In this document: one piece after another, positions 11,135-35,682 of the stretch | Layout: each line of letters opens with the position of its first letter | How positions within the stretch are numbered: the first letter of the stretch is position 1 | Source of the DNA: Ilyonectria destructans | Lineage: Eukaryota; Ascomycota; Sordariomycetes; Hypocreales; Nectriaceae | Reading direction: 5' to 3' | Length of the DNA: 64,000 bases | Assembly (NCBI GenBank): GCA_020740775.1 | Contig: JAHEWK010000014.1 | Span: 1,798,001-1,862,000 of the forward strand | Position numbers and translations under genes: made by a program | Notes under the pieces: generated by a model | Told to the model about the DNA's origin: nothing | What the model saw: only the letters and a program-made list of their open reading frames with translations | The model's database searches: none

Positions 11135-11687
11135 GACGGAAGATGAGACTTTTAGTATAGAGCAAGAGGCGTTTTCAATGTTGACGAGGATATCAGTGCT
11201 AGAGAACGAGAGGAGGGAGTATGGTGTTAGATTGATTCACACGTACTAGTATTTGTCAGCATATTTCCCCTCCCCCACACTTCAAATGGGGTAGAAAATG
11301 CCTGGGATTGCGGAAAGCAGGGGAGGCCGGGGAAAGACTCGAAGGATACTCAACCTAACCTCAACATGGATTAGCGCTCGTAGGTCGGGGAGCGTGTCAG
11401 GGAGTTTGTCAGGGATGCCTTTCCAATCGCGGAATTTCGGGCATCGGGGAGTTTCGGCAAGTAGGGCTTCGGTCGTCCGAAGACATGCCAACTCTGTAGA
11501 TCCACCACCTCTTAGGCCACAGAGCATTGGTTCTCCATGAACCTCGAGCATTCTCAGACATGACTTACTCACCATTCTACTCTGCTCTGTTTAGTTCTGC
11601 TCCATATAGTTACTGTCATCTAGCAAACACCTCTCTGCATTTGCGAAAACGACAGCTTCCGAAGGACAAGACATACGGAAACTCACC
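11135..11687. promoter_or_regulatory. Divergent promoter, aldo-keto reductase / alcohol dehydrogenase
   Basis: A 553-bp region between two divergent redox genes. It has an ATATAG element at about 11604, 84 bp before the dehydrogenase ATG, and CGGAATTTCGG around 11425-11437, similar to the CGG-containing sites in other promoters of this cluster. Confidence 0.45.
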
Positions 11688-13098: not shown

Positions 13099-13756
13099 AG
13101 AAACGGAGGCGTTGGAGAGTTGCCGACCCGGTGGCTTTAATACTATTGAATATGATAAATACAGATTGAGATGATTCTTGTGATTTTATATGTAGGCAAG
13201 TGAATAGTACACTATAGTTCAGGTTGTACGTGTCCTCTTGTAGCGAATAGAACCACGAATACCAATTGACGGTTTGATGTAGCGCCCTTGGTAGGAGAAT
13301 CGCAGGATGGGCATGGGACACTGGGGCTGAGCTTTGGGCCGAGGTGCCCACTTTTGGATCGCAATCCCCGCAAGGGACCCAGATCTGGAGGACCTGAATT
13401 ATGGCCCACGATGGCTTTTCCTATTATCGAAGCATCTGGCCTGGTCTTCCCTTGCTATTTCCGCCTTACCCCTCGGTGGAGAGTTCCAGATCGAATCCGG
13501 GGAAGGCCAACTAATGGTCGCTCGACTAGTCTAGACTTTGCTAGTCTAATCATATGCAAGCTACCCCGATGATCTAGCACTAAGTCTCGAGCTAGTCGTA
13601 TTGTCCTGCTTATCTTTTCCGAACCCCAAGAGACGAATTCACCCGTAGCAAACTCCCCGCCTCTCTTTCTCCTCTTCCCTGTCTCCCTCTGTCAACCGTC
13701 GACCACCAAGCCCTCTTGCATCTCTGGCTGCTTTGTCCATACCGCCCGTCTCGATC
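13099..13756. promoter_or_regulatory. Intergenic region upstream of the second regulator
   Basis: 3' flank of the dehydrogenase and promoter of the next gene. A pyrimidine-rich CT tract at 13650-13700 lies just upstream of the start, as in many fungal promoters. No other gene seen. Confidence 0.4.
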
Positions 13757-15226
13757 ATGAAGGCCACTTACCGTGTTCGGTTCGCCGCTGACAGCAAGTA
13801 CCAGGGCTCACCGGCAGACCCGGCGCCTCAGTCTTGCGCCGTCGCGCGCCTGTCACCCTCGGTCTGTTCGAGCCTCTCCCCAACAAGCGACAGCAGGAAG
13901 CCGAGGAGCAAGAGCAAACTCGGCTGCAGGGAATGCAAGATACGAAGAGTCAAGTGCGACGAGACGTATCCCGTGTGCCTCCGATGCCAGCGCCGCGGCT
14001 CAGTGTGTCTCTCCGCTCCGCCTCCCGTGCAGTGGCAGGCTGAGATGCCCTGGATCGTCGAGAGACCCATCTTGGATCCATGGACTGGCATCGTCAACCC
14101 GAATAAGCGACTATTGCAGTACTGGCTCGACAAGACCAGCCGAATGATGTCCCTAATCCCTGACAACAACCCGCTCTCGTTCCCCCTCATCGAGCACCTC
14201 CTCTCCACGCCGTCGTTGGTGCACGCCGTCCAGAGCATCAGTGCCGGGCAAGAACACTTTTTCCATCAGTCCTCCTTGAAGTCATGCCTCGCCGAACGCG
14301 GCCTTGCCATGCAATCGCTCCAACTCGAGATGGAAGACCCCAGCAAGATCAAGTCCTCTTCCCTCCTCACCGTCTTCCTCCTCGGCACCTCCTGGACCTG
14401 GACCGAGGATCATCCTGCTTGCTATGGGAAAGAGCACCTTTTGGGGGCTAGGGCTCTACTAGAGAAAATGCTGGTTGACGAGCAGAAGCGGGAAGATCCG
14501 CTGGTAGAGTTCATCTTGGGGTGGTACATCTATTGGGATATGTCCTGCTCATTCATCGCAGAACCCGGCGACCTCTCTCCACTAAATACCGCCGAGTTCT
14601 TTTCTTCTCTGCAGAACACGCGATCCTCCTTCCACCCCATGCTCGGCTTTTCGGCTGAGTTGTTGTACTTGGTCGCCTGTTTAGGCCGCCATTGCCGACA
14701 AGTGATGCAGAGCGGAGTCCGGGATCCGATTCTAGAATCCACCTTCGAAGAGCAACTCAGGGCATGGAAGCCTGATTGCGAAGACAAGGATTTGGTGTAT
14801 TTGAGTAATGCATATCGAAATCACGGGCTTATCATGCTATACGAGATATGTGGACAGTCCACGCAGAATCACGACCCCGATGCGCTATCGGATGACGGTA
14901 ATATAAGCACAGACTCTGGTCATGTCATGCATGCTCTCGCTCTTGAGAGCCTACAGGAAATGTTCCAGACCCCTGTCGATGTGCCCTGCTTCTGCTATCA
15001 CTCGATTCCGCTGCTCACTGCAGGCGCTGAGCTGTGGCAAGGCGACGCTCACCTGCGGATTGAGGTCATCAACCGCTTCAAGGCCCTGTACTCGACGAAT
15101 CGACTTGCTATTAATATATGGGCGATTGATCTGCTGCAAGAGGTATGGGATCTACGGGATATCGGTATTCATGTCTCATGGTTAGATTTGTTGGTAACCC
15201 AAAAGTGGACTTTGACTTTTGCATAA
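13757..15226 (+). CDS. Zn2Cys6 transcription factor (second regulator)
   Basis: Single-exon gene, 489 aa from the ATG at 13757; the frame is open 8 codons upstream but without ATG. Zinc cluster Cys at residues 57, 60, 67, 74, 77 and 84 with the standard spacing, preceded by a basic KPRSKSK linker. The remainder resembles the fungal specific transcription factor domain of the Fungal_trans_2 type, with the segment following the cluster (WIVERPILDPW), the LLQYWLDKTSRMM helix and the LGTSWTW region. It differs in architecture from the first regulator, so the two are not recent duplicates. It probably controls the flanking alcohol dehydrogenase, SDR and GMC genes; this is inference from position. 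Confidence 0.88.
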   Translation: MKATYRVRFAADSKYQGSPADPAPQSCAVARLSPSVCSSLSPTSDSRKPRSKSKLGCRECKIRRVKCDETYPVCLRCQRRGSVCLSAPPPVQWQAEMPWIVERPILDPWTGIVNPNKRLLQYWLDKTSRMMSLIPDNNPLSFPLIEHLLSTPSLVHAVQSISAGQEHFFHQSSLKSCLAERGLAMQSLQLEMEDPSKIKSSSLLTVFLLGTSWTWTEDHPACYGKEHLLGARALLEKMLVDEQKREDPLVEFILGWYIYWDMSCSFIAEPGDLSPLNTAEFFSSLQNTRSSFHPMLGFSAELLYLVACLGRHCRQVMQSGVRDPILESTFEEQLRAWKPDCEDKDLVYLSNAYRNHGLIMLYEICGQSTQNHDPDALSDDGNISTDSGHVMHALALESLQEMFQTPVDVPCFCYHSIPLLTAGAELWQGDAHLRIEVINRFKALYSTNRLAINIWAIDLLQEVWDLRDIGIHVSWLDLLVTQKWTLTFA

Positions 15227-15997
15227 GCGAGGGCTGGTTGGCAACGATTGTATTCGATCCTGTATGGAACAGACCTCGAAAGCAGGTGTTTCGGGCTTCA
15301 CGGGGCAGCCTCAACGTTCAATCTCACAGACTCCCCTCGTGCTCTAAAGACAAAGTTGTCACTGTTCAGGGTCATTTATTCATGCAGTTTGATATGGGAT
15401 AAATTGCAAAATGGGATAAGTCGAACTTGTGGACAGAGGCAACAATCCCGAGCTTTCCTTAAATGATGGTGGTAGGTAGTTTAAAGGGTTCATTTCCGGG
15501 ATAATGGTTCAGGCCGCCTTGAGGCAAGTTCCCCATTGAGGGCGATATATTCAGAAGTGGCAGCAGAGTTCTTTCGCGTTTGCACTCTAGATAGAAAGTA
15601 GCGCCATTTAGAACTAGCAGGGGATCGGCGTACTCCCTACTCCGCACGGTCTTCACCTCGGGACCTCGCTCAATGCGGAAAGTCTTGGCTATGTCGATGC
15701 GGAGCCGACCACATGGTCTTGTAGATCCAGACTAACCGTCTTTGTCTCAAACGCGAATAAGTACGGTATGAGCTGCTTCTGGGTGTGGGGAAGCGCCGAC
15801 CTAGTAGATTCTCGCCTTTTGCAGATAAGAGCGGTCTATTTAGCCAAGGCATCCCGTTCGCTGCCTTGACTCTGTTCCTAATGCTAGACTAATTATTGAT
15901 GAGTTTGGGCTATGCAAGGCAAAAAGAAAGAGGCGAAACGCGTACACATTTGTTCTTTAATTAAAACATCATTTCATTGTCGCTATAGAGGTGACGT
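15227..15997. other. Convergent intergenic region
   Basis: Lies between the regulator (plus) and the SDR gene (minus). Short ORFs only, without family signal or splice support. Confidence 0.5.
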
Positions 15998-16983
15998 CTA
16001 TCGGTCCGTCGCCGCCAGAACATGAGGCATGGCCTCATCACACCAGTCAGGCTGATCTCTAAAGTATATGTTGGACATGTTTATCTCGACTGCCCGTCCA
16101 AAGACGTCCGCTCCCTGAATTGTCCTTCCTCGAGCGTCCGACATGTCCACGCCATCGACTATCTGCAAAACAGTGCCCGTGACAATCTCCAACGGCGTGA
16201 AATACTCGGGAGGGTAATGCTCAAACTCCTCGTCAGTCATGAGGTTGGTCGCAACAACTCCAGGCAAGATGGCATTCGCGCGGATTCCCTCGCTCTCAAG
16301 GCGTGGAGCAATGGCGCGCAAGAAGCCAACCACTCCATCTGTTCCAGGAAATTGCATTGTCAGCATCAAGGTCTCTTCGGCAGGTCTGTTTACTTACGCT
16401 TTGCCCCTGTATACATGGGGATGGCGAAGCACGGATACAGCGAGCCCACACTGGCCGTCATGATGATATTTCGTGCCGGTACATGGGGACAACGTCGAAA
16501 ATAATGCAGCGCGAGGTAAGTCGAGCTGATGACCGACTTTAGGTCAATGTCGACAGCAAGCTGGTTCAGCTCCGGAGGGGGACCCTGTTGGTCGTGTGTT
16601 GCGTAGAAGTCGACACTGTCGACGATGCCTGCATTCGCAAAGACCAGATCAAGCCTTGCATGTTCCTGGAAGATCTTGTCGAACAGCGCAGCCAGCGACG
16701 CATAGTCATTGACGTTGCTCTTGTGGAATCGTGCAGAGGGTCCGAGGTCTTTCAGCGCGGCCTCGCCACGATCGGAGTCTAGGTCGAGGATATGCACCAG
16801 CCACTGACCGCGCCGTGACAGTTCGGTTGCCACGCCGAGGCCGAGGCCACTGGCTGATAGGTAGTCAGCACTCCATGATCAAGTATGCACGGGTCAGTCC
16901 TCTGGACTCTGGGGAAATAGAATCTCAGTACCTCCGCCAGTGATGATGGCGACTTTCTTCTCCGTCTGTTCTTTGGCTGCCAT
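15998..16983 (-). CDS. Short-chain dehydrogenase/reductase
   Basis: Three exons on the minus strand: 16983-16932, 16853-16398, 16338-15998; introns 78 and 59 nt; predicted 282 aa. Classical SDR with cofactor motif GGASGLGLG at 16-24, NAG at about 91-93, a catalytic Ser near 152-155 and the YTGAK motif (Tyr165, Lys169). It resembles the fungal 15-hydroxyprostaglandin-dehydrogenase-like SDRs, probably using NAD. It is divergent from the GMC oxidoreductase, so the two may be co-regulated. The substrate is probably a hydroxyl or keto intermediate of the pathway; not determinable here. Confidence 0.9.
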
Positions 16984-17493
16984 GATCAATCTAGATTTCG
17001 TTTGATAGCTGAATTAGACGGAGAAATGATGGCGGCACAGAGCGTAGAAATAGCCTCCAGGATCGGCCCAGCTGGAACGTGGAACGGTGGAATCTACTCC
17101 GTGTGCGGGGTTCTCCGAAAGCCTGAATCATGCAAAGTTGACGAAAGAAGCAATTCAGGCACGTTCCTCCACGGCCGGGAGTGGAAGATGAAAGATGGGG
17201 GCGGTTCATCGCATTGCGCTACCTGAAGGTGTCACATGTGGGATGTTAGTCAAGATAGCAGCTCTGCATTGTGGAGTACTTCACTTTTGCTAAGTCACTA
17301 CTCTTACACTACCAAATCGTCCAAAAGCGGAAGGTGGCGTCGGGTTTGGGCCCAGAAGGGCCTTGCCAGCTCGGCATTCAGAGTAACAGCACAGAAGCCG
17401 CTGAAGAAGAAGGGTTTATATGTTGGCTTCAGAGTCCCTGGATCGAGACAGAACAACTCAAGCTTCATCTCAGCATCTCCAACACGGCTCACC
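16984..17493. promoter_or_regulatory. Divergent promoter, SDR / GMC oxidoreductase
   Basis: Contains a CGG-N6-CCG arrangement near 17107 and a TTTATATG element at 17415, 79 bp before the GMC ATG. The frame of the GMC gene is open upstream but lacks homology there. Confidence 0.45.
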
Positions 17494-19207
17494 ATGTCCA
17501 CTGTCAATTGTCTCTCCACCGCCGCTGCCGACTCCTTTGACTATGTCGTCGTTGGTGGCGGCACCGCAGGCTGCCTCGTTGCCAGCCGCCTTGCCGAGTA
17601 TCTCCCCAAGAAGCGTATCCTCTTGATTGAGGGCGGACCAAGCGACCTGAACGACCAGAAGGTCGCTGACATTCGCGAATGGATCGCCCTCCTCGGCACC
17701 GAGTATGATTACGACTACCCCATCACGGAGCAGTATCGAGGTAGACGCATCTGATCTAATCCCCCGGCATGTCCATTCGTTGACAATTTTCGTCTTTCAA
17801 GGCAACTCCTCCATCCGCCACTCTCGGGCCAAAGTCCTCGGTGGCTGCTCGAGCCACAATGGCGGCATCTCCCTGCACACGGTCGAGCACGACTGCAAGC
17901 TGTACGAGTCCCTTGGCGCCAAGGGATTTTCTTGGCCGGAGATGAAGCGCTTGATTGCCAAGCTCCGTCTTCCGTACCAAGTTGTCGAGTCCCAGCACCA
18001 GAACGCCATCGTGACGGACTGGATTCGTTCCACTTCTAGCGCCCTCGATATCCCGATCGCCGCCGACTTCAACAAGAACATAATCGCACAAAACGGAAAC
18101 TTGACCGAGTGCGTCGGCTACATGCCAATTGCATACGATACACAAAAGATTCATCGTCACAGTGCCAGCACCGCCTACATCCACCCGATCTTGCGGGGCG
18201 ACTGGAGGAGGAACAACCTCACCATCCTCACCGATGCTTGGGTATCCAAGCTGAACACCAGCGCTGATGTTGTCACCGGCGTCGAGGTCAAGCTCGAGTC
18301 CGGTTCCAGAATCACCATCCGAGCTCGAGATGAAACCATTCTTTGCGCCGGAGCCATCGACACCCCAAGGCTGTTGCTGCTATCAGGTATCGGGCCCGAG
18401 GAGCAGCTACGCTCCCTTTCCATCCCCGTCGTCAAGGACATTCCTGGTGTTGGGTCAAACCTGCAGGACCATGTTGAAGCCATCATCGTGTGGGAACTCA
18501 ACAAGCCGCTGCCCAAGGAAACCGTCACCTACTCCGACGGCTTCTGCTTTGTTCGACGTAACGAGCCCAACACCTCGGCGGATGGGGCGACCCCGGATCT
18601 CATGTTCCATCTCTACACCGTCGCGCAATGTCCCAATGCAGCGCATCTTTCTTATGAGGTGCCAGAGCATGGATTCTCCATGATGCCCAACGTCCCGCGC
18701 CCCAAGTCCCGCGGCCGTCTCTACCTCACCTCCTCTGATCCCAACGTCAAGCCCGCCTTGGATTTTGCGTACTTTACGGATCCCGAAGGTTACGACGAGG
18801 CCACCGTTGTTGAAGGCTTGAAGATTGCTCGCAAAATTGCAGCCCAATCGCCCCTCAAGGACTGGATCAAGCGTGAGGTAGCACCTGGCGATAGCGTCCA
18901 GACCGATGAGCAACTGTCGGATTACGGCCGTGCGGTATCCAGCACGCTCTTCCACCCCTGTGGCACAACCAAGATGGGAGATGTCGCAAGAGATCCTCTC
19001 GCTGTCGTTGATACCCAGTTCAACGTTCGAGGTATGCGCAAGATTCGCATTGTGGACGCCGGTGTCCTGCCCGCGGTGTCCACAACGAATCCCATGTTGA
19101 CCATCTTGGCCTTTGCCGAGCGGGGTGCGGAAGTTATTGCTCAAGCTGCGGGCTGGCAGGAGGGTGCTGTCACGGAAATTAATGGCCAGGAAACAAGTAG
19201 GTTGTAG
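17494..19207 (+). CDS. GMC-family FAD oxidoreductase, peroxisomal (SRL C-terminus)
   Basis: Exons 17494-17740 and 17802-19207 (61-nt intron), 550 aa. Glucose-methanol-choline family flavoenzyme. FAD-binding GGGTAG at 21-26, then the second FAD segment (KVLGGCSSHNGG) and the GMC signature region around GAIDTPRLLLLSGIG. Probable catalytic pair His467 (FHPCGTTKMG) and Asn512 (TTNPML). The start at 17494 is in good context (caccATG) and places the FAD motif at the normal distance. The last three residues, SRL, are a type-1 peroxisomal targeting signal. No secretion signal, which separates it from secreted aryl-alcohol or glucose oxidases. An alcohol or choline-type oxidase or dehydrogenase is likely. 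The next gene is also an SRL-ending flavin oxidase. Confidence 0.9.
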
Positions 19208-20023
19208 GTTGATTGCCGGGTATTGTAGAGGCTCAGCTGGGCGCTTGAGGCTAGAGCTACTATAAATAATAGTAGTATAACTTGGATACATTCGACGATT
19301 CAAATAATATTTGCATTGATTTACCGTGATTAATCTGGGATTCTACTTGACTGAATATATAGAGTGATTATTTAAAGATATTTCTTTCATATTATATCAT
19401 TTAGAATGAAATTATTAGCTTTAAAAATAAATATATATCTTTATAATTTATCAATACTATGTAGCTTTAATACGTTTAATAATATTATATAAAGCTAAGA
19501 AAAAAGACCATTATTTTTACAGATTCGGCATAAGCACAGTCCTACTATCCGGATAGCAAAACGTTACAGTTCGATAGCACTACTCATTACCAAGACTAAG
19601 ACAAGCAGACTCTGGAGCTAGACGGAAAGCGCAGACCAACGGGGTTTCAAAAGACTCTAGTTACTCTGACAGTTGTCCAAGCATAACCGAGCAGGGTAGG
19701 GAGCAATTGGTCTTGGGGTGGCTGGCACATTCACAGTTTATTTCCGTTTTTAGCAGAAACGCGATGGCCCCACGGGCTAAACCCAACCGAGCCACTGGCT
19801 CCTACTTACCAGAAAGGGTCAACGAGCGAGGCCCCGCGTTGTACCATGTAGATATGGACATGAATGTCCTGTTACCAAAGGGTTTCGTCCAGAGTTCCCA
19901 ACATCAATTCAAACCGACAACCTAGACATCTCCAAGAGAGCCATCTTTTACTCAGTTGCTCCCACCCCCGTCTTCTACAACACTCGTCTCTTGCGCAGGA
20001 AGTGCAACCTCAATCCGGTCAAG
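19208..20023. other. Intergenic region with an AT-rich patch
   Basis: About 19260-19510 is strikingly AT-rich compared with the GC-balanced flanks and has no ORF; it could be a decayed insertion. The remaining 500 bp is the promoter region of the oxidase gene. Confidence 0.5.
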
Positions 20024-21175
20024 ATGCCCAAGATTACCATTCTCGGTGCCGGGTAAGTGTTTCGGCTTTCACTCTTTGCATCATCTCCGCCAACCTCGAG
20101 GCCGCTGACGACATTAGCATTACTGGCATGACCATCGCGAGTCAGCTCCCCAGGGATTACGATATCACAATCGTTGGCAATGATCTGCCCGGAGACGAAA
20201 TGAAGCCCGAGTACGTCAGCCAATGGGCGGGCGCAATCTGGCTTGGAACGCATGACTGCACTGTCCGAGAGCAGCAGATGCAGCTTGGTAGTCTTGCCGA
20301 CTTGTGGAGGATTGCCCAAAACCACCCCGAGTCTAGCGTACGCCACATCGAGATGAAGGAGATTTGCGACTACGGTTCTCCCGACAAAGTTTGGTACAGG
20401 AATAAGGTCCCTGACTTCGAACTCCTCAACGACAACGACCTACCTAAGGGCGCCAAGTTTGGAATGAGGTACAAGACGGTTGTCCTCACCCCAATGGCCT
20501 TTCTGCCCTGGTTCCGCACCCGCCTGGAGGAGCGAGGCGTCACCTTCAAGCGACTCTATGTCACCTCACTCGCCGACTTGAAGGGCATGGGGCACGATGT
20601 CCTCATCAATGCCACGGGATTCGGAGCTTCCAAGCTCAATGACACCGAGGAGCTACGGATCGAGCCCATGCGCCAGCAGAACATCAGGATTAGGAAGCCA
20701 GGATACAACAAGTTGTACATCCGCCGTGGTGAAAATGGCTATTACTCGACTGCCTTTTCTCGACAGGACGGCACCATCTACATTGGCGGTATCAAGACTC
20801 CCGGCTTAGTTGACTATACTGCTGATGCGGAGCATCGCAAGATTGTAAGTGTCTACCCGACCCTCTCTCCGACAGTGGAACTGACCACGCGTTCACTAGA
20901 TCATGGCTCGCCAGCATGCCAACCAGCCAGAGGTGTTCCCCTCGCCCAATGTTGAGGATTACGACTTTATCTGTGACCACGTCGGCGTCTTCCCCATGAT
21001 CTCTCAAAAGAACGGCGGTGTTTGTCTCGAGAAGAAGGATGTCGGCTCGCAAAAGGTTGTCCATGCGTACGGACAGGAGGCCGGCGGCTACACTTTCAGC
21101 TTTGGTCTGGCCCGTGAGGCTGTCAAGCTTGTCAACGAGTATCTTGCTGAGATTCCCGTGGCGAGCAGACTGTAG
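20024..21175 (+). CDS. D-amino-acid oxidase family flavoenzyme, peroxisomal (SRL C-terminus)
   Basis: Three exons: 20024-20052, 20118-20844, 20900-21175; introns 65 and 55 nt; predicted 343 aa, the usual length. FAD-dependent DAO-fold enzyme that would oxidise D-amino acids to keto acids with release of ammonia and hydrogen peroxide. The N-terminal dinucleotide motif is split by the first intron (ILGAG/ITGM). The SQWAGA segment and the C-terminal GQEAGGYTFSFG flavin-binding segment are family hallmarks. It ends in SRL, a type-1 peroxisomal signal, as is common in this family. The short first exon was chosen because it supplies the GxGxxG motif in phase. D-aspartate oxidase is an alternative. 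Confidence 0.88.
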
Positions 21176-22348
21176 ATGGTAGAAATGGTAGCGTTCATGA
21201 AGTAGTAGTGTAATTGGTAGCATTCATTACGAAAGAGCGTGAGCAATTGGCACCTATGATCTATGAGGCGCCGGTGACCCTAAACAGAGCGGGGAAGAGA
21301 GCCCCAAATGCTCACTGATGTTTAGTCCGTATCAAATCCAACAGTATCTTGATTACCTGCTTCTTAACAGTTCCGAGTGCGCATCCGCTGTGGTTATCAT
21401 CCAAGGTTTTTACAACATTCGACCATTGTATCATTCCCTGGATCATTTTGGAGGGCCCCTCGGTCGCCCTCCAAAATGCCGTGGTGAGGCTAGTCGAGCT
21501 GATTAGGCCCCTGCAAGATCGTCTCCCCAGTCACTCAAGAAGCTGAGAGTAAGGGAGCTCCTTGGCTCCACGTAAGTGACGGCCAAATGTAGATACGTGG
21601 GACTCCAGCTATCGGGGTGCAAGTGACTGTTGGCCGCGGACAACAAATGATGGGGCGGTCCCGCATTGGCGAGGAGAGGAACGAACTAACGACCGATAAG
21701 AGGCTTCTGTTGATTGCTTCGCTAAGCAAAAGTGAACTTCTCCACCACGCTAGGCATTATCGTGGTCTATGTATCTCTCATGTCCCTCGTCCACCAACAA
21801 TTCCACAGTTTAACTGGGGCACAATGACTCGCGACATACGTAAGGGGGAACCAACAAGCCGGGACAGGCTAATCTCAATCGAGACACCGTCGCGAACTAT
21901 CCGAATTAGGAAAGCTAGCACAGCGAACAGCACAATCCCTGTGACACGCTTCGCGGGGGTATGAGGTACACTAGCTGAATCCGCCACCTCCGCAAACCGC
22001 TTCCCTGCCGTAGATAGGACTATGAACCCTTGGAGAATAGCCTTCAAGTTAGCTTTCCAATACAAACCCCCATGACACCCCCCGGAGAGATGGAAAACGA
22101 AGAGGCAATGTAGAAAGTGGACGTTGTATAGCAACTAGTGCCCTATTGGTTGGAAGGTACCGGAAGGAATAAACTGTACGTGTGTGTGTAGGGTTGCAGA
22201 CTCCGCTAACGGGTCAAATGTTTTTATATCTAGCAACGTGCCGCACCCAATTCTCCAGTTTTCCCAAGGAACATTATGCTCTCCACCCCTCATTGTTGCA
22301 TAGCACCTCGTCTCTTCTAAATCTCTTGGCAACTGCAACCCTCTCATC
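21176..22348. promoter_or_regulatory. Long intergenic region upstream of the permease
   Basis: 1.17 kb without supported genes. A TTTATATC element at 22223 lies about 126 bp before the permease ATG. An imperfect inverted repeat around 21449-21475 (GGAGGGCCCCTCGG ... GCCCTCCAAAATG) could form a hairpin. Confidence 0.4.
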
Positions 22349-23899
22349 ATGGCTTCGTCGCCGGAAACAAACCCTTCTGATGTTCCCCCATCCATATCCA
22401 AGGCAGAAAAGGGGCAGTCCCTAGGCAGGGCTGAGTCTTTGGGGGCTGGAGCCTCAGCTGAAGTCCATCATCAGAAGCCTTTTACTACATTCACTGCCAT
22501 CGGCCTCGGGTATTCCATCACCAACACAGCCACCGGTGTCATCTTGACCGTCTCCGCCACGACGCCCTTTGGAGGATCACCTCTTTTCTTCTGGGGCTTC
22601 ATCTTCATCGCGGCTATTGCTCTTTGCATTGCTACGACCCTTGGAGAGTTTTGCTCCATGTGGCCACATCCTGGCGGTCAATACGTCTGGGTGGCTCAAC
22701 TCTCCCCCGAGCGGCCACGCCGCTTCCTCTCCTACATGACCGCCATCATCTCGTGGGCTTCGGTCGTGTGTATCAGTGCGTCTTGTGCGCTGGCGGCGAG
22801 CACAACCTTGTTTCAGATGATTTCCTTGACCCATCCCGAATTCGAAGTGAAGCCCTGGATGCTCTTCGTTACATACGAAGTGCTGAACATGCTCATCTTC
22901 GGACTAAACTGCTTCGAATTTCTACTGCCCATGATCGGTAAATTCCTCATCCTCTTCACCGTCACCATGATCACCATCATTTTCATCGCTCTATTCGCGG
23001 CCGGCTCGGGGACCAATTCTGGACACGATTTCTTCTTCGACTATTACAATATTTCAGGGTGGTCTGATGGAATTGCCTTTCTCATTGGTATCAACGGATT
23101 GAACTGGTGTTTTTCCTGCTTGGATGCTGCTACGCATCTGGCCGATGAAATTCCTCAACCCGAGAAGAATATCCCCAAAGCCCTCATCTGGACCATCCTT
23201 GTTGGAGCGGCCACAGGTCTGCTCATCATTTTTGCCATCTTCTTCACCGCGAAGGACTTGACAACGGAGACGAACTCGTTGCTGATATTTTACGACGTCA
23301 TCCACCACAACAAGAACGCAGCACTGGCCCTCGAGGCTTTGGTGTTCGTATCGGCATACGGCTCGCTTATTGGCATTCACACCTGGCAGTCTCGTATCGC
23401 GTGGGCCCTGAGCCGAGACAGAGGATTTCCCTTCCACTCATACCTCAGCCGTCTCGCACCTGCCCCGTTCTTGACCCCAATCTGGGCTCATCTTTGGTCA
23501 TCTTGCTGGACAGGTCTCTGCGGGTGTTTATACCTTGGCTCACAGACAGCCTTCAGTTCTTTCATTGCTGGAGGTATTATTCTGCAATACGCAACCTATT
23601 GTCTGCCGATTGTCCTCCTTATCTGGCGTGGCCGCAGCAACGCTCCTCACGGGCCGTTCTGGTTTCCCAAGATTGGACTTTTCTGTAATGTCGTTACAGT
23701 ACTCTGGTTTCTGATAACTCTGGTCTTCTATTGTTTTCCTTATTTCCTCCCTGTCCAGGCCGACCAGATGAATTACGTCTCAGCTGTAATCTTTGTTGTT
23801 ATTATCTACGCGCTCATCTACTGGTTCACCTACGGCCACAAGCATTACAGGCTTCCTCAAGACCTGCTTGTTTCAACGTCTCATATATCTAGGGATTGA
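22349..23899 (+). CDS. APC-family amino acid / GABA / choline permease
   Basis: Intronless, 516 aa. Plasma-membrane permease of the amino acid-polyamine-organocation superfamily. About 12 transmembrane segments. Typical features are the N-terminal GLGYSITNTATG segment, the GEFCSMWPHPGGQY motif in the third segment, and the DAATHLADEIPQPEKNIPKAL loop that marks fungal GABA/choline-type permeases. An N-terminal cytosolic tail of about 55 residues has Ser and Lys sites. It lies directly after the D-amino-acid-oxidase gene, consistent with import of a nitrogenous substrate for that enzyme; this is inference. Confidence 0.92.
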   Translation: MASSPETNPSDVPPSISKAEKGQSLGRAESLGAGASAEVHHQKPFTTFTAIGLGYSITNTATGVILTVSATTPFGGSPLFFWGFIFIAAIALCIATTLGEFCSMWPHPGGQYVWVAQLSPERPRRFLSYMTAIISWASVVCISASCALAASTTLFQMISLTHPEFEVKPWMLFVTYEVLNMLIFGLNCFEFLLPMIGKFLILFTVTMITIIFIALFAAGSGTNSGHDFFFDYYNISGWSDGIAFLIGINGLNWCFSCLDAATHLADEIPQPEKNIPKALIWTILVGAATGLLIIFAIFFTAKDLTTETNSLLIFYDVIHHNKNAALALEALVFVSAYGSLIGIHTWQSRIAWALSRDRGFPFHSYLSRLAPAPFLTPIWAHLWSSCWTGLCGCLYLGSQTAFSSFIAGGIILQYATYCLPIVLLIWRGRSNAPHGPFWFPKIGLFCNVVTVLWFLITLVFYCFPYFLPVQADQMNYVSAVIFVVIIYALIYWFTYGHKHYRLPQDLLVSTSHISRD

Positions 23900-24427
23900 G
23901 TAGAAGGCACACTAAGTATATTGGATTGAGATACAAAGGGAAGTGTCTTAGGAGGCTCAAGACTAAATGGTGCTGGCATTGTACAGGGTAACATGGGTAA
24001 TGCAAAGCCGTTCTGGGATCGTTTCATGCCTCTTTTTAGTTTCTTTGCTTATCTAGGTATCATAAGAGTCTGAACATGTATTTTAACAAGTTCTGCATCA
24101 AACTTGAGATTGTGAATGGTTGGCACCGATAGTATTAGGAACTCTGTAGTCTCTTTCCGAATTGTGCCAATTTGAAGCCCTATCTCAAGGCTACTTCAGA
24201 CCATGATATCTTGCCGGGGTTGATCTAGCGTATGTCACTCATAATAAACGATGGCTCTATCTGATGCGGACCCCGACTTCCTAATTAGGCGGAATCCCGA
24301 CGCAATCCCCCTCTCCTCCTCGCCCAATGGCAACACTCGGTGGGCCCTCCCTGGGACTTGATATAAAACTAAACCAAGTCAAGGTTGAGCCAGCAGCGGA
24401 ATTCTGACCACATACTTGCAATCCATT
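23900..24427. promoter_or_regulatory. Promoter region of the lactonase gene
   Basis: Contains CGGAATCCCG (CGG-N4-CCG) at 24290-24299, nearly identical to the site before the sugar transporter, and a TATAAA at 24362-24367, about 65 bp before the ATG. Confidence 0.5.
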
Positions 24428-25475
24428 ATGACGACTTTCAAATCGTACCACAAGTCTTTTAAGAAAGTCACAGGGCCTCAGCCTCGGCTTCAGTTACTTC
24501 TTGAGAAGGATTACCCCTTCGCATTCGAGGCTGGCATCTTCGTCCCGTCTAAGAACGAACTGTTTATCACAAGCAGCCCCTTTGACGATTGCAACGGGAA
24601 CAGGACAGTTCATATTTCCAAGATTACGTTCAGCGTTGTCGATGGCCAAGAGAAAGTTGGCCAGGAAGTGTTGCCAAACGGCCAGATGGCGATGGCAAAC
24701 GGAGGAACCAATGGTGGAAATGAGCTGCTTTTCTGCGCTCAAGGGTCCTTTGATCTGCCGAGCGGAATCTTCTCGATGACGACTGATCCACCTTACGAAA
24801 GCAGGCCGATCATCTGTGATTTCTACGGAAGACCTTTCAACTCTGTAAATGATGTGGTTGTGCAAAGCGATGGCAGCATCTGGTTCACAGATCCAGCATA
24901 CGGCTTTGGAGAGGGATATCGACCACCTCCTCGTCTTCCCAACCAAGTTTACAGATTTGATCCGGCAAGTGGTAGCACTCGCGTGGTAGCTGATGGGTTC
25001 GGGCACCCTAATGGTATTTGTTTCAGTCCCGACGAGAAGGTGGTATACATTACCGATACAGATTCCATCTGGGGCGATGGGAGTATAAGCGATGCCAGAG
25101 CTTCTACAATGCAAGTTCCAACCGATTCAGGCTACTTTCCAACCAAGCATGCGGCTGACACAATCTAGCTACGCATTTGACGTCGCAACATACTCGGGAC
25201 AACCCTTCCTCGTGAACCGTCGACTCTTTGCTATGGCGGACAATGGCTATCCTGATGGTATCAAGTGCGATATGGATGGGAATGTCTTTAGTGGATGCGG
25301 AGATGGTGTTCATGTTTGGTCTCCGGGCGGCGTCTTGATTGGCAAGATCTTGATTCCAGGTGGAGTTGCTAATCTCTGCTTTGGGAAGAGAGGTGAGCTG
25401 TTTATCCTCAACAGTACAAAGCTATGGCGGGCCGTACTAGCAGACTCGACGCGCGGTGCTCTTCTAAAGATATAA
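24428..25475 (+). CDS. SMP-30/gluconolactonase-type lactonase
   Basis: Exons 24428-25110 and 25169-25475, predicted 329 aa. The 58-nt intron is GC-AG: donor GCAAGT, branch GCTGACA, acceptor TCTAG. Splicing gives ASTIYAFDV, as expected in the family. Six-bladed beta-propeller metal-dependent lactonase. Recognisable elements are the N-terminal Glu (FEAGIF), SVNDVVVQSDGSIWFTDPAYG, the PNG/PDEK blade and the YPDGIKCD motif with the metal-ligand Asp. The ATG at 24428 is chosen; the frame is open 4 codons upstream but has no ATG. Sugar oxidation by the cluster dehydrogenases would give a lactone for this enzyme. Confidence 0.9.
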
Positions 25476-29065: not shown

Positions 29066-30328
29066 CTAAAAAGAGCACTCGATGTTTGACTCTCTGAAGG
29101 CCTGCTTCAGCAATGCCTGCTTAGTTTCGAGTCCTGGAAATTCGACCTTGCGGAGGCTCGGGAAGTATACTCGGGTCTTGGTAGCCAGTTCAAAGATGTC
29201 GTCCCACATATGGTCTGGGCAAGATGTAAGTCGAAACGATTGAATTGTCGGGGGTAGAAGGTTCAAAAGTCCAACTGTCGGAGAAGGGTGATCAGACCTA
29301 GTAGCCATGATATTTTTGCTGTCGATGGTTAAACTCTCGAGAGCCGTCTTGTTGAGATTGTCGATCAAGTGGGAAATCGGTAGACAAAACGCAGGGTCAA
29401 CGGCAAGGACGAAATGTCGAAGGGTATCGCGGCGGGTCATAATGGCTTGTTCGATTTGAGACGGTGTGGCATCGGTATTCTCTAAAAGAGCAAACTGGGG
29501 AGTTCTGAAAGTGAATGATGCAAGCTTGGGAAACGCCCTCATGGTTCTTCGGAAATCGTCTCGTGCCATGACGCTGCGCTCCAAAACCAATGTCCTGATG
29601 TTGCTATGCTCAGACAGAGCCGCCACAGCACCAATCCCACAAGCTTCGATTGTTTGGAGATTGGGTGCTGATTGCAAAATATTCTTGACTGAATTAAGCG
29701 AGACCTGACTGGATCTGTATCGACATATCAGGGTGAGGTGTCGAAGACGAGGTAGCCGGCACGGTCGCAGAAGGGGGACCGGTTCATTGCATAACGCAAG
29801 CTCGAGGAATTCCAAGTTGGGAGCCAGGCAAATAAGAAGCCCAAGCTGAATCAACTTGAGATCTTTGCGGAGAAAGTTTCTGTCGATACCGCTTCGGTCA
29901 ACGTGGCTCGTCAGACGTTCCTGTACTGGCTGGTCATGAATGAATTTGTCTGCTAATTGGTTAAGGAACGCCATAGCATCAAGGTCAAGCTCACCTACCG
30001 ACCAAAAGTTGGTGACCGAGCCAAGCTCTTTGACGTGGGATGCAATGTCGGGTCTTTGGGACAATGTTTTCAGTAGTGTGAGGGTTTGAGGACCTCGAGT
30101 AACGGGGAAGTGGTATAGAAATGGCCTAGCAACGTTGCGCAGCCACCTACATGAACGTGAAAGATTTGCCAGGGCGCTGAGTCGAGGCGGGCTCAACTCT
30201 TGGCGTCGATGCTGCCAACAAGGATCGAGACGTGATAATGGAGCTGTCCAAGGAGGGGTGCAGTGCGGGCACAACTGCTGGCAAATAGCCACCAGCAGTT
30301 CGGGGGGCATTTGTTGAAGGGAACACAT
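29066..30328 (-). CDS. F-box/LRR-like protein
   Basis: Single-exon minus-strand gene, 420 aa from the ATG at 30328; the open frame extends 6 codons further but starts with GTG. The N-terminus has an F-box-like pattern: LQQMPPELLVAICQQL, then SRSCRWLRNVARPFLYHF. The rest shows irregular leucine-rich repeats typical of fungal F-box proteins, which act as substrate receptors of SCF ubiquitin ligases. A TATA-like element lies about 67 bp upstream (30394). No partner gene nearby. Confidence 0.75.
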   Translation of the reverse strand: MCSLQQMPPELLVAICQQLCPHCTPPWTAPLSRLDPCWQHRRQELSPPRLSALANLSRSCRWLRNVARPFLYHFPVTRGPQTLTLLKTLSQRPDIASHVKELGSVTNFWSVGELDLDAMAFLNQLADKFIHDQPVQERLTSHVDRSGIDRNFLRKDLKLIQLGLLICLAPNLEFLELALCNEPVPLLRPCRLPRLRHLTLICRYRSSQVSLNSVKNILQSAPNLQTIEACGIGAVAALSEHSNIRTLVLERSVMARDDFRRTMRAFPKLASFTFRTPQFALLENTDATPSQIEQAIMTRRDTLRHFVLAVDPAFCLPISHLIDNLNKTALESLTIDSKNIMATRSDHPSPTVGLLNLLPPTIQSFRLTSCPDHMWDDIFELATKTRVYFPSLRKVEFPGLETKQALLKQAFRESNIECSF

Positions 30329-30851: not shown

Positions 30852-30936
30852 GGCTTCATGGTCTAGTGGTATGATTCGTGCTTTGGGAGTTCTGCTCAAC
30901 TGTACGAGGCCCCGGGTTCGAACCCCGGTGGAGCCC
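30852..30936 (+). tRNA. tRNA-Pro(UGG) with 13-nt intron
   Basis: Cloverleaf read by eye. The acceptor stem GGCTTCA pairs with TGGAGCC with discriminator C at 30936. D-arm contains TGGTCTAGTGGTA, anticodon stem CGTGC/GTACG, anticodon TGG at 30884-30886, T-arm CCGGG-TTCGAAC-CCCGG. A 13-nt intron (30888-30900) sits one base after the anticodon, the standard eukaryotic position. The mature loop TTTGGGT equals that of yeast tRNA-Pro(UGG). B-box GGTTCGAACCC is internal. Confidence 0.95.
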
Positions 30937-31263: not shown

Positions 31264-31530
31264 CTAATTCTGAACCACCATTTTCCCTTTTCCTTTGGGG
31301 TCATCCTTGGGCTTAGGAAGGTTCTTCTTAGGCTCAGACGGGCCATCCTTGGGCTTGGGAGGGGTGCACGTCCAGCAGCGCGCAGAGTCAACGTCGTTCT
31401 CCACGGTAACCTCATGCTTCGAGCAGCTGATTTTCTGTGTCTTCTTTTGGCAGATTTGCCAACGGAGATCTACAAAAATACAGTCTCTGCACGCGGAACA
31501 TAGGAATTTGGATTCAATAAAAGTGCACAT
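31264..31530 (-). CDS. Small Met-Cys protein, array copy 1 (Lys/Pro tail)
   Basis: 88 aa from the ATG at 31530; the frame is open upstream but only from TTG, and family alignment fixes the start at Met-Cys. Cys at 2, 11, 14, 27, 36, 52 and 55, plus an extra Cys17. The GSCG block is lost (KISC instead). After the last CxxC it has a unique 33-residue tail rich in Lys, Pro and Asp (repeated PKPKD and PKKNL units), the most divergent end of the array. TATA-like TATTTAT (plus strand) at 31614 is 84 bp upstream. Possible zinc ribbon; function unknown. Confidence 0.72.
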   Translation of the reverse strand: MCTFIESKFLCSACRDCIFVDLRWQICQKKTQKISCSKHEVTVENDVDSARCWTCTPPKPKDGPSEPKKNLPKPKDDPKGKGKMVVQN

Positions 31531-32191
31531 TCCAGCGATGCCGACTTGGTATGGGAAAGAGACTAGGATTCGGGTTCCTTGATGGTGGATCGGTTCTTGG
31601 GGCAATGCTCATGTATTTATATAAATACACTTGTCTGATTCACTCACTTCAGGAATGCGTCTTTGTCACCAGTCCGGCAGTCCAAGCGTCCAAGAATACG
31701 CCAACCCTGCCTTATTCCTGCGCGACTTGCCGCTACCCATGGACTCATCGGACTGATCTTTGTCATGGGCGCAGTCAATAAAGACAGTGCGAGTTTCTTT
31801 ACACCGAGAAATTTCGTGCAATATTATAGTCAAAGCAGATTATTCTGATGCTTCCCGAGATCAGATACCTTGACATTACGCGTGTAATCAATGCTAGATA
31901 TGACTTGATCACCCCACGTGTAGTCCATACACTGTCGTGAACAGAAACCTGAATTATTTTTGAGTAACGGAGGGAGCACGTTATGCAATGAGGCTAGCAA
32001 CCAAACGACTTGAAAAAGAAGACAGACCATGGTAGCCACACATCTGTCGTACTGAGGTGGAGAAGCATGGTATTAAATTGACTTAGGCCTCTAAATAAAC
32101 CATGCTAATGTCAAGTAACAGTAAATGGCTATTGTGCTGCATGACTCATAATCCCCAAAGATTCCTCTTGATATCCGCTCAAGTATATAAA
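31531..32191. other. Spacer within the small-protein array
   Basis: 661 bp containing the promoter of copy 1. I found no additional copy with the Met-Cys scheme here. Confidence 0.4.
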
Positions 32192-32395
32192 CTAACCTTG
32201 CATATATAGCTTAATCTTGCAGGGATAGCATTTACTACTGGTTCTGTCCGGTTGTGGCTTCTTTATCGTGCCACAGGAACCTATTTCCTTGCTCTTGGTG
32301 TTGCGTGCCGTGTCGCATTTGTAAGTTACATTTTGAGAGAATACCGTGTCACCACACACCCCACAAAGGTAAGAGATTTCGCCTTGGACACACAT
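32192..32395 (-). CDS. Small Met-Cys protein, array copy 2
   Basis: 67 aa, ATG at 32395. Cys at 2, 11, 14, 27, 41, 56 and 59, with the KSKEIGSCG block at 34-42. Soluble, basic C-terminus. TATA-like box at 32480, 85 bp upstream. The reading frame ends next to a possible splice donor (AG/GTTAGT), so a downstream exon cannot be ruled out. Family unknown; the two CxxC pairs suggest a treble-clef or zinc-ribbon fold. Confidence 0.75.
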   Translation of the reverse strand: MCVQGEISYLCGVCGDTVFSQNVTYKCDTARNTKSKEIGSCGTIKKPQPDRTSSKCYPCKIKLYMQG

Positions 32396-32636
32396 TATGT
32401 GAGTGAAGTTTATGTGGCTTGAGGTTGGTTGTTGGTAATAGAGAAGTGATGGTTCAGTTCTTGTGAAGGAGAAGCTAAATATTTATGCACATTTATCCCA
32501 GTGAATTTATGCATGGTTTGGGTTCCAAATGATGGTCTTTCTGGACAGCCGCCGGAAGAAAGCAGTGAATAGATGATTTTCTTTTCGATTGACCCTAGGT
32601 TCAGATCCTAAACTCAATAGTTTCCAAGCCATCCTC

Positions 32637-32843
32637 TTAGATTCGTTGGATTATCGTCGGAGGCGTAACCTCGCAGATAGAGCACACTATTGTGCCCACG
32701 CCTGGCTTCGTCACATTTCCACAGGACCCTATTTCCTTACTCTCAGTGCCAAGTGCAGCCTCGCATTTTTTGCTGACGTAGTCTGTTGATAAACGTCGGC
32801 GGCACTTCGAGCAGTCAACCCAGGTCTGGCCTTGGGAGCACAT
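32637..32843 (-). CDS. Small Met-Cys protein, array copy 3
   Basis: 68 aa, ATG at 32843. Cys at 2, 11, 14, 27, 41, 54 and 57; ESKEIGSCG block conserved. The PxxD element before the last CxxC is shortened, so the C41-C54 gap is two residues shorter than in copy 2. TATA-like box at 32929, 86 bp upstream. Confidence 0.75.
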   Translation of the reverse strand: MCSQGQTWVDCSKCRRRLSTDYVSKKCEAALGTESKEIGSCGNVTKPGVGTIVCSICEVTPPTIIQRI

Positions 32844-33058
32844 GGTTGTTGATAATGTCGAGGAGGGTAGTGGTTGAATAGGTTGTGTTTTTAGTTTCTA
32901 GACAATACCGTCAAGGTAAGAGGCTGCCTATTTATCTGTGTTGGACGCTGGTGAATTATTGTCGTGGTAGTCGTTAATAAGAGCATGATAATTTTATCAT
33001 TAATTCACATCAATGATATAAACGGTGACTAGCTTATTTTCTTGCTTAATTACACAAA

Positions 33059-33277
33059 TCATTTCTTGTCCTTGGGGTTTGGCTTCGTAAGCTCCTCAAG
33101 CTTACACGATGGACACAATGTAGATCTGTCCGGCGGCGGCTTTGTTAGCGTGCCACAGGAACCTGTGCGCTTCGATTTGGTTTTGCATGCTGTCTCGCAT
33201 TTGTCGAGTTTATACCCAGTCGTGCACACCCAACTGCACTTCCTGCAATAGAACAAGGCTTCGCCTTCAACACACAT
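33059..33277 (-). CDS. Small Met-Cys protein, array copy 4
   Basis: 72 aa, ATG at 33277. Cys at 2, 11, 14, 27, 41, 55 and 58, plus extra Cys18 and Cys31. KSKRTGSCG block and PPPDRS element present; lysine-rich tail ending KDKK. TATA-like box at 33373, 96 bp upstream. Confidence 0.75.
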   Translation of the reverse strand: MCVEGEALFYCRKCSWVCTTGYKLDKCETACKTKSKRTGSCGTLTKPPPDRSTLCPSCKLEELTKPNPKDKK

Positions 33278-33458
33278 GGTGGCGAGTGACTTTTCAGTTG
33301 TGAGAAGAATGAGATTTGGAAGGCAGTGTGATCTTGGAGTTTAGCTTGGGCAGTTGGATAAGAGGAGCTGCGTATTTATAGACGATCAGCATGTGTCACT
33401 GAGCAATGTCACAAGAAACACGAATTTTCGAAGTTGGTTTGTATCTATTCAATGATAC

Positions 33459-33680
33459 TTAGAGAGTTTCATTCCTCAACTTGGGTATTTTGTCGATCTG
33501 AGAGGCACATTTAGGGCAGGCCTTGCTCCAATCTGCCGCCGGGGTATTCTTCGTGCCACAGGAGCCCACTTTCTTTCCCTCGGTCTTTAGTGCAGCAGCG
33601 CATGCTTCGCTTTTCCATACATTGTTATACGTCCCACCGCAAATCTTGCAGTAGACCCAAGTGAAGCCTTCGATGCACAT
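33459..33680 (-). CDS. Small Met-Cys protein, array copy 5
   Basis: 73 aa, ATG at 33680; the open frame continues upstream, but the start is fixed by the shared Met-Cys beginning. Cys at 2, 11, 14, 27, 41, 55 and 58; EGKKVGSCG block. Its upstream TATA-like element (near 33783) is weaker and slightly farther away (about 103 bp) than in its siblings. Confidence 0.73.
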   Translation of the reverse strand: MCIEGFTWVYCKICGGTYNNVWKSEACAAALKTEGKKVGSCGTKNTPAADWSKACPKCASQIDKIPKLRNETL

Positions 33681-34251
33681 GGTTGAGTTTCTTTGGGGAT
33701 AGTGGTTGTTGAAATGTAAAGCGAAGCAATGAGTTAAATTGAAGGTCAAATCAAGTCGGGTTGGGTCGTGGTGTGGGCACATAGATATACCCGTCCGACG
33801 TTTGTGAATGAATGCTTCCTGGAATCAAGACATGGATTCACTTTCAGCAAGCACTTGAATTACATTGAATGGATCTGATATGCCTAAACTTAAATTGGGA
33901 ACCTGCAATGATACTGTCTTGCCTTGTTACAACGTCTCATCGTCTGGCACCTTGTATCTCCCACGTCGCTCCCTCTTCTCGTGGCTCTAGCTTTAAAACC
34001 TCCCAATGATTGCATGACCTTTCTCTAGTGAATTTGGAACTTGGATCGTGATAGCCCGGAATTACTCAACATTGATACTATTATGTGTACACGCTTCTTG
34101 ACGGTAAAACTATCATTATTGGACAATGCTTGATAATCTTCGGTGCAGGTCACGCCTACACTATATAAGCCTCACCAAAAATAATTCCCGACTTCTCCTT
34201 TCCAGTAATGACAAACTTTCAGTAGAGATCCAATATTTGCTTTTAATAGAC
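33681..34251. other. Spacer within the small-protein array
   Basis: 571 bp between copies 5 and 6; larger than most spacers. No complete or partial family member noticed. Confidence 0.4.
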
Positions 34252-34446
34252 TTAAGTCTTCAGTTTGGGGGCACACGCGCCGCACAACTTGCTCGTATCC
34301 CTCTCCGGCGAATTCATTGTGCCACAAGAACCTATTTCCTTCGACTCGGTTTGGCTCGCTACCTCACATATTTTTGATACCCACACGGTGTCAGACCGCA
34401 GATGACAATTCCTACATATTAACTGGAAGAAGCCCTGGACACACAT
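34252..34446 (-). CDS. Small Met-Cys protein, array copy 6
   Basis: 64 aa, the shortest copy, ATG at 34446. Cys at 2, 11, 14, 27, 41, 55 and 58; ESKEIGSCG block identical to copy 3. TATA-like box at 34536, 90 bp upstream. Confidence 0.75.
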   Translation of the reverse strand: MCVQGFFQLICRNCHLRSDTVWVSKICEVASQTESKEIGSCGTMNSPERDTSKLCGACAPKLKT

Positions 34447-34643
34447 GGTCAGCTTTGGTAATAGTTTTGGGAAGATGGTTTAGTTTAATATGTGAGTGAT
34501 AGAATCTGGAGTTGGGCCCTTGGGTCGACGTTGGATATTTATGTATCTTCACGCTTGTGAATCAATGCTCAGTCACAACATAACATGTTGTCACTTGCTG
34601 ATTAAATGGCGGGAAGTGATAGTAGCCTCCTTGCTATGACACG

Positions 34644-34853
34644 TCAAGTCGCCTTGCCCTTGCCCTTTTCTCGGGTCCTCCGACATAGACCACACTCAGC
34701 ACTCTCCACTGCATCCCGACTCGTCACTTTGTTCTTACACCTCCCAAACCTATCCATTGACCCTGCGTCCTCGCAAGGTTCTTGTACCAACTGTCGCCCC
34801 AGATTTCTGTCGCAACTTTTGCAGACCTTCTTCGTCATCGTGTTCCAGCACAT
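34644..34853 (-). CDS. Small Met-Cys protein, array copy 7
   Basis: 69 aa from the ATG at 34853. An upstream in-frame ATG (34937) would add 28 residues, but the TATA-like element at 34944-34950 would then lie only 7 bp before the start. With 34853 it is 91 bp upstream, as in the other copies. Cys at 2, 11, 14, 27, 39, 54 and 57. The GSCG block has diverged (FGRCKN). Very basic C-terminus with KGKGK. Confidence 0.7.
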   Translation of the reverse strand: MCWNTMTKKVCKSCDRNLGRQLVQEPCEDAGSMDRFGRCKNKVTSRDAVESAECGLCRRTREKGKGKAT

Positions 34854-35189
34854 TTTGGGCGGTTGTTCAAATTTAGTAGAAGTTGAATGGGATGAGCAAA
34901 TTGGACTTTGTGAAGATAATTCTACAACAGGCGGCATTCGAAGTTATATAGGTGGTGACCCGAGATATTTCGTTTAACACTGAAGTAGGGGGAGTGAAGC
35001 GTAGCTGGTCAATTGCGTGATGAAGCCTGTAGTGTTCTGAGGTGAAGCAGTGTAACTTGAGGGATTCCCAGGGCTGTTGCACACCGGTGTCTAGGCAGTG
35101 ACTAGAGACAGCAGTGATCATCTTCGACCAGCGTTATGTGGGATTCAGAAATGGAGAAACTCCGGGTTTACAAAAGCCTGCCATTGAAA
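34854..35189. other. Region between the array and the toxin-gene relic
   Basis: Contains the promoter of array copy 7. No other feature recognised. Confidence 0.4.
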
Positions 35190-35682
35190 CGCACCATGGC
35201 TTTCTCGCTGCCGATTCGCGTGTCGCAAGCCGTGGCGACTACGACCCCAAGCTGGCCCTCGCGTATGACTCTGGTGCAGGGAATGAGTCGTTCGGGTTCG
35301 GATGGAGCGTGCCGCTGCCGACGATCCATTACAAGACCGCGCATGGGATTCCACGGAACGTTGATGAGGACGACCTGGCCGTGTCTGAAGCAGATATTGT
35401 TAGACAGCTAAAGGAAGACGGCACGGCTAAAACGAGAGCCGAGTCGGGGCCAGGGCGAGTTCGAGTTACTATGTATCGTCTGCGAGTCGACTCTGGCAAT
35501 ATGCGAGTGAGAGGTGGTCCAGCAAGGTCAGCCCTGGCGACGTGCACTGGAGGACCATCACATCTGGCAATGAGACGACAATCTACGGCGACAGCGATGA
35601 CCGCCGCATCCTGAACATTTCTGGCGGCTCATTGACCTCGGATACCATTGAGCTTTCTCTGAATATGTCGAGGGTCGTCTAA
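35190..35682 (+). pseudogene. Decayed fragment of a Tc-toxin B-subunit (SpvB/TcB-like) gene
   Basis: Three pieces in different frames, in collinear order, resemble the N-terminal SpvB domain of the insecticidal toxin-complex B subunit, a bacterial family also found in some fungi. The middle piece (about 35222-35500) contains the hallmark SGAGN and GFGW elements. A short piece precedes it, and a third (about 35500-35640) carries the GDVHW and TIYG elements. At least two frameshifts (near 35222 and 35500) and a stop near 35680 break it, and the other roughly 90 percent of a normal gene is absent. It cannot encode a working toxin component. Horizontal origin is likely from what is known of the family; the fungal donor or recipient history is inference. 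Confidence 0.72.

Follow-up and report, generated by a model that had tools for sequence, protein, structure and literature searches.

Seven small Met-Cys proteins of Ilyonectria destructans belong to a genome-wide family with a fixed seven-cysteine frame and a putative zinc scaffold

The described systems that come closest to the proteins reported here are zinc domains. In Fur/PerR proteins a structural Zn(Cys)4 site is formed by two CxxC pairs. The entry title of one example, PDB 2fe3, gives Zn(Cys)4. Zinc ribbons and double zinc ribbons (Zn_ribbon_6, PF07191; DZR, PF12773; Zn_ribbon_SprT, PF17283) combine two CxxC knuckles with a beta-hairpin, and the fungal Zn(2)-Cys(6) binuclear cluster (PF00172) is a small, fungal, all-cysteine zinc domain. 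Here we describe a family of small proteins with likenesses to these systems, recognized in a stretch of 64,000 nucleotides of the ascomycete Ilyonectria destructans (C6:1798001-1862000 of a 71.7 Mb genome in 74 contigs; hereafter the window), in which seven minus-strand open reading frames (ORFs) of 64-88 amino acids (aa), here called genes 1 to 7, span exactly positions 31264-34853 in the ORF reading of the window, with gaps between them. The two CxxC knuckles and a predicted beta-hairpin are shared with the zinc ribbons, whereas a Met-Cys start that is always kept, and three additional cysteines in the framework, set the family apart from them; and unlike in the Zn(2)-Cys(6) proteins, the domain makes up the whole protein.

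All seven ORFs start with Met-Cys and carry, on the same strand, the spacing C2-x8-C11-x2-C14-x12-C27 followed by a CxxC that ends the core (7/7), in agreement with the initial annotation of this DNA, which overlooked a further, middle cysteine that all seven proteins carry at position 36, 39 or 41, after C27 and ahead of the last CxxC. Searches of the genome with single proteins, together with the reading of the fetched DNA, revealed no fewer than 17 further copies without interruption, distributed over eight additional places, i.e., 24 members at nine places, a figure that is a lower bound as the genome searches score best candidates only. Five-copy tandem arrays are located at C34:2921846-2924935 and C12:4102714-4105778, two copies at C73:850481-851390, and single copies at C74:967943, C74:941336, C8:1005382, C23:3163437, and C6:1644898. 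The copies inside each array all share one strand and the family proteins measure 58-98 aa. The first C12 member and the first C73 member were initially found by pattern in fetched DNA and the rest are protein-search matches, the E-values obtained by single queries ranging from 1e-25 to above 1. Homologs with conserved spacing therefore exist elsewhere in the same genome: the family is real and larger than the set of seven first claimed, and the window locus itself is not special. The coexistence of tandem arrays and dispersed single copies points to birth-and-death evolution. Three other candidates (C4:2238650, C36:159134, and C26:279821; E 0.16, 1.0, and 3.1) were dropped, being devoid of the pattern and covering only residues 38-86 of gene 1.

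Across the 24 members M1, C2, C11, C14, C27 or C28, and the final CxxC are invariant, with strict x12 spacing in 22 of them and x12 or x13 in all. The middle cysteine is present in 24/24 by position lists and falls in the same alignment column in 22/24; in C6:1644898 it is residue 32, nearer to C28 than the pattern permitted, so that the pattern count is 23/24. Both CxxC pairs occur in every member, spaced 37-46 residues. The invariance of the framework cysteines is partly due to selection of the members, as ORFs were picked with a pattern requiring Met-Cys and the early cysteines; against a pure selection effect, this pattern did not require the middle cysteine or the final CxxC, and the full-length protein-search matches start at query residue 1 (one of them at residue 2). 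In addition, TGT and TGC were each found in all seven framework columns of the 24-member set, and these synonymous changes in cysteine codons evidence selection on the protein. One array member (L036 2886-3179, minus strand) shows two extra cysteines (63 and 68) and a Gly/Ser/Thr-rich tail beyond the closing CxxC.

The ratio of non-synonymous to synonymous differences (pN/pS) was calculated for the 15 pairs that C74:967943 and the five close copies of the window can form. The pooled values were pS 0.641 and pN 0.415 (ratio 0.65), and pS 0.614 and pN 0.490 (ratio 0.80) when the framework columns were left out, with silent sites near saturation and 2 of the 15 pairs beyond correction. With pN/pS below 1 in both cases, the diversifying selection between copies that had been proposed is not borne out; the sequences argue for purifying selection on the frame and weak constraint elsewhere. 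Such weak constraint outside the framework (0.80) would also be expected if the ORFs were chance reading frames or what decay has left of a single duplicated stretch, an explanation that we regard as extremely improbable: the strict cysteine pattern occurs seven times in the window vs none in 30 first-order Markov windows of equal size, the 24 members are stop-free through the closing CxxC with the synonymous cysteine codon changes described above, and a profile built from members at other places recovers all seven window proteins.

This outside profile was made with 16 members from other places, leaving out the close copy C74:967943, and it ranked the window seven 1-7 among 1914 six-frame ORFs of the window. 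Their E-values were 5.6e-9 (gene 7, the best), 2.6e-7, 3.6e-5, 1.4e-4, 1.5e-4, 6.9e-4, and 0.018 (gene 5, the weakest), and the next ORF was at 0.061. When each protein was compared with 500 decoys in which every cysteine was kept and the remaining residues were shuffled, the real score was matched by 15, 15, 1, 4, 123, 1, and 0 decoys for genes 6, 2, 3, 4, 5, 1, and 7, respectively, and by 17 for the C74:967943 copy. In the reverse direction, a profile of the window seven placed most outside members high, and 0-104 of 500 decoys reached the real score of the 17 outside members. Several results in this direction were weaker: four of these 17 members (two from the C34 array, one from C12, and that of C8) had at least 50 matching decoys out of 500, five members reached only E 0.099-0.69 with the window profile, and this profile also admitted a chance ORF (L049) at E 0.0016. 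Taken together, the reciprocal profiles and decoys indicate that, for the most distant copies, relatedness is based chiefly on the cysteine frame; judged from these comparisons, kinship beyond the cysteines is evident for most members, not for all.

The identities outside the framework are in line with a highly diverged set. They amounted to 6-17% between groups and 8-19% within the outside groups, over a background of 6.4% (standard deviation 3.4) for shuffled rows, and rose to 33% within the set of five close copies of the window and to 32% when this set was compared with C74:967943. The window copies are 21-44% identical to gene 2. The description of the seven as diverged paralogs is thus right as regards divergence; what does not stand is their equal rank, as genes 2-6 (32192-33680 and 34252-34446) are close kin and the outer two, genes 1 and 7, are distant. 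In the phylogenetic tree none of the 21 inner branches was fully supported. The five close copies group with C74:967943 (91/87), the C12 array groups with the single copies of C8, C23, and C74:941336 (81/84), and a single clade of all seven window genes was not recovered and not rejected (approximately unbiased test, p-AU 0.103). The long branches make the deep branching order unsafe.

As part of the reading favoured below, the seven ORFs would be real, intron-free and separately promoted genes of the genome-wide family. All are on the minus strand. Gene 1 (31264..31530) encodes 88 aa, is one of the distant members and has a long K/P-rich tail; its TATA-like motif lies at -93. Genes 2 (32192..32395, 67 aa), 3 (32637..32843, 68 aa), and 4 (33059..33277, 72 aa) show such motifs at -91, -92, and -103, respectively, and gene 6 (34252..34446, 64 aa), for which an AlphaFold2 model was made, at -96. 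Gene 5 (33459..33680) is free of a TATA-like motif by the rule used and encodes 73 aa counted from the Met-Cys start; there is an additional in-frame ATG upstream, at 33782, and comparison with its kin suggests that Met-Cys is the start. Gene 7 (34644..34853, 69 aa), the other distant member, has its TATA-like motif at -97 and an upstream in-frame ATG at 34937, which sits 13 bases from the motif start, probably too near to it to be part of the transcript, making Met-Cys the likely start. Overall, a TATA-like motif was detected between -140 and -80 of the Met-Cys ATG in 12 of the 24 members, including 6 of the 7 in the window, vs 119/5000 random stretches across the window and 418/5000 in its 30-36 kb part (2.4-8.4%). 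The motif set had been widened after the upstream DNA of the window was read; a narrower set gave 7/24 members and 3/7 in the window, two upstream regions being incomplete.

The statement that no described family shows this scheme held up in the library searches, as no convincing match was found in Pfam, PHROGs or NCBIfam. For the window seven no Pfam match exceeded the curated cut-off; for all 24 members the best Pfam hit was Defensin-like, with one member (E 0.0027), the best PHROGs hit had E 0.019, and the best NCBIfam hit E 0.0081, with two members. The search of PDB sequences by profile gave at best ribosomal protein bL36 (E 0.11). Relatives were not confirmed in prokaryote and viral collections searched with an alignment of the close copies, nor in viral contigs with one protein as query, in both cases using short motifs, which distant kin could escape. 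The zinc-ribbon models matched gene 5 at chance-level E-values (0.066-0.37), with scores under one half to two thirds of what the curated cut-offs demand (best 13.7 bits vs 25-28), and DZR_2 matched gene 7 at E 1.7; the other window proteins had no zinc-ribbon match, and none of the window seven reached a zinc-ribbon cut-off. Among the matches listed for the 24 members (25 of 34 families), each zinc-ribbon model was seen with at most one member. PF00172 matched none of the window seven and, among the same listed matches, none of the 24 members. A recognizable description of the Met-Cys family was not found in the literature searched, where a cysteine pattern is not a searchable term. Unnamed hypothetical proteins of similar layout are present in other filamentous ascomycetes, with a Met-Cys start, the next cysteine about eight residues on, a Cys-Gly in the middle and a closing CxxC, so that the family may have a wide distribution and still lack a description.

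AlphaFold2 was run with the 24-member alignment on gene 6 and on the C23 copy. The best model of gene 6 (predicted local distance difference test, pLDDT, 88.5; predicted template modelling score, pTM, 0.58; the other four models at pLDDT 69.8-72.5) contains strands at residues 2-10 and 17-25, a helix at 28-31 and a C-terminal helix at 59-63. That of the C23 copy (pLDDT 88.8, pTM 0.62; others 76.1-86.1) contains strands at 2-11 and 17-25, a helix at 28-33, a strand at 40-49 and a helix at 55-60. The two models concur in a beta-hairpin/helix domain in which the hairpin turn or its immediate vicinity holds C11xxC14, C2 and C27 are placed toward the opposite end of the hairpin, and the last CxxC is at, or immediately before, the final helix. 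In fold searches, neither model retrieved a structure that reached Foldseek E 0.001, and for the predicted fold the PDB searches made yielded nothing significant. The Fur/PerR C-terminal domain, with which the family has the CxxC...CxxC layout in common, was the most frequent family in the top rows for both models, at scores like those of unrelated rows and thus not significant.

The suggestion that these proteins are metal-binding is plausible, with zinc as the presumed metal, and the family is probably a new small zinc scaffold. We consider it somewhat better than an even prospect that it represents small intracellular zinc-folded domains with two sites, duplicated and employed as adaptors. 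The seven invariant cysteines would fold a compact domain around zinc: C11xxC14 and the last CxxC may build a Zn(Cys)4 site, and C2, C27, and the middle cysteine, all toward the far end of the hairpin, a second site of three cysteines. Asp, Glu or His never exceeded 14/24 in any column filled in at least 12 rows, indicating that there is no conserved eighth side-chain ligand; the second site might take as its fourth ligand a cysteine in a bridging position or, once Met1 is removed, the free amino group of Cys2. A scaffold held by metal, not by a large hydrophobic core, would leave nearly all other residues free to vary and could tolerate nearly any surface, and tandem and dispersed duplication would then yield paralogs with differing surfaces, most likely protein-interaction adaptors with one partner each.

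A high density of cysteines, with seven framework residues per ~65, is also what metallothionein-like metal buffers would have. CxC motifs are typical of metallothioneins and were present in only 3 of the 24 proteins, the Cys content of which is 8-13%; moreover, the exact spacing and the ordered predicted fold favour a structural site. Even though PMC12508003 reports gene duplication in fungal metallothioneins, we regard metal buffering as very unlikely.

A cysteine as second residue allows the removal of Met (see also PMC11773813). In plants, Met-Cys N-termini are substrates of the N-degron pathway (PMC11773813). Were the same to hold in the fungus, Met would be taken off, Cys2 oxidized and arginylated and the protein degraded, and the family would consist of sensors of oxygen, nitric oxide or redox state. 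The Met-Cys start of the 24 members (in part a result of how they were selected) and an arginyl-transferase domain, ATE_C (PF04377), at C6:1331545-1331955 are consistent with this possibility. A PCO/ADO dioxygenase was not found in the genome, in a search that gave no match in control genomes either. However, Cys2 is conserved just like the remaining framework cysteines, and in the models it is part of strand 1 and close to the end of strand 2 at which C27 is found, suggesting burial; we regard a sensor function as quite unlikely. A different use of the mature N-terminus is that, after loss of Met1, the thiol and the amino group of Cys2 together complete the three-cysteine zinc site, the scaffold serving as a diversifying intracellular recognition repertoire. 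This would account for the unvarying Met-Cys and for the missing eighth side-chain ligand; we put it forward tentatively, as a rather unlikely reading, which, if true, would mean that Met removal gates folding and that a recognition repertoire is spread over many small arrays. A role in defence or self/non-self recognition, as raised by the initial annotation, is a guess, and the RNA-binding role raised along with it is speculative.

The interest of the family lies in its size, no fewer than 24 members in a single fungal genome, in the lack of a convincing Pfam match and in a fixed seven-cysteine frame from residue 2 on. If zinc-folded, it would be a very small and very tolerant scaffold repeatedly duplicated by a fungus, and a clean test case for an N-terminal cysteine as structural metal ligand.

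The placement inside the cell assumed for the zinc-folded adaptors agrees with the reported lack of a secretion signal: judged by run length, no N-terminal signal peptide was seen in the 24 proteins, whose longest run of A/I/L/M/F/V/W is 2-5 residues. Many effectors are small, Cys-rich, tandem-expanded and fast-diverging, and the Met-Cys proteins have these same traits, so that they might be exported in an unconventional way and target a host or a competing organism. This is unlikely in view of the absence of a hydrophobic leader and the odd number of framework cysteines, and the CxxC pairs would suit metal sites more than extracellular disulfides. The genomic neighbourhood points in the same direction, as most of the Pfam-matched neighbours belong to ordinary metabolism, transport and regulation. 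The exception is an open fragment of 169 aa beside the window array (35102-35608, plus strand) with a match to SpvB (PF03534, E 9.2e-21, profile positions 17-114 of 287), presumably the toxin-gene relic to which the array had been linked. This link is unsupported, since copies occur at eight other places and the 30 ORFs scanned of 84 long ORFs around them showed no type of neighbour more than once, SpvB not being specifically sought. Of these 30, at least 15 were without a match reaching E 0.001; the rest were of the types SGF29, Arf, kinase, bZIP/PAP1, FAD hydroxylase, P450, potassium transporter, Zn-cluster regulator, aminotransferase, hydantoinase, mitochondrial carrier, and LrgB.

Zn-cluster regulators are common in fungi, and Zn2Cys6/Fungal_trans_2 regulators, which together with the gene content point to a filamentous ascomycete, were detected, one of them at window positions 13649-15223 and another near C74:941336. 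On its lower-coordinate side the array is adjoined by a tRNA-Pro (anticodon tgg; 30852-30936, plus strand) and flanked by an ORF of 420 aa (29066-30328, minus strand) that likewise starts with Met-Cys and is F-box/LRR-like, with a leucine-rich repeat (LRR) match at E 0.00099, below the cut-off, and an F-box recognized by eye. Farther away, genes on one strand at 8193-25472 are related to a sugar transporter, a Zn2Cys6 regulator, a GMC oxidoreductase, a FAD oxidoreductase, an amino acid permease and SMP-30/gluconolactonase, and this region looks like a catabolic gene neighbourhood.

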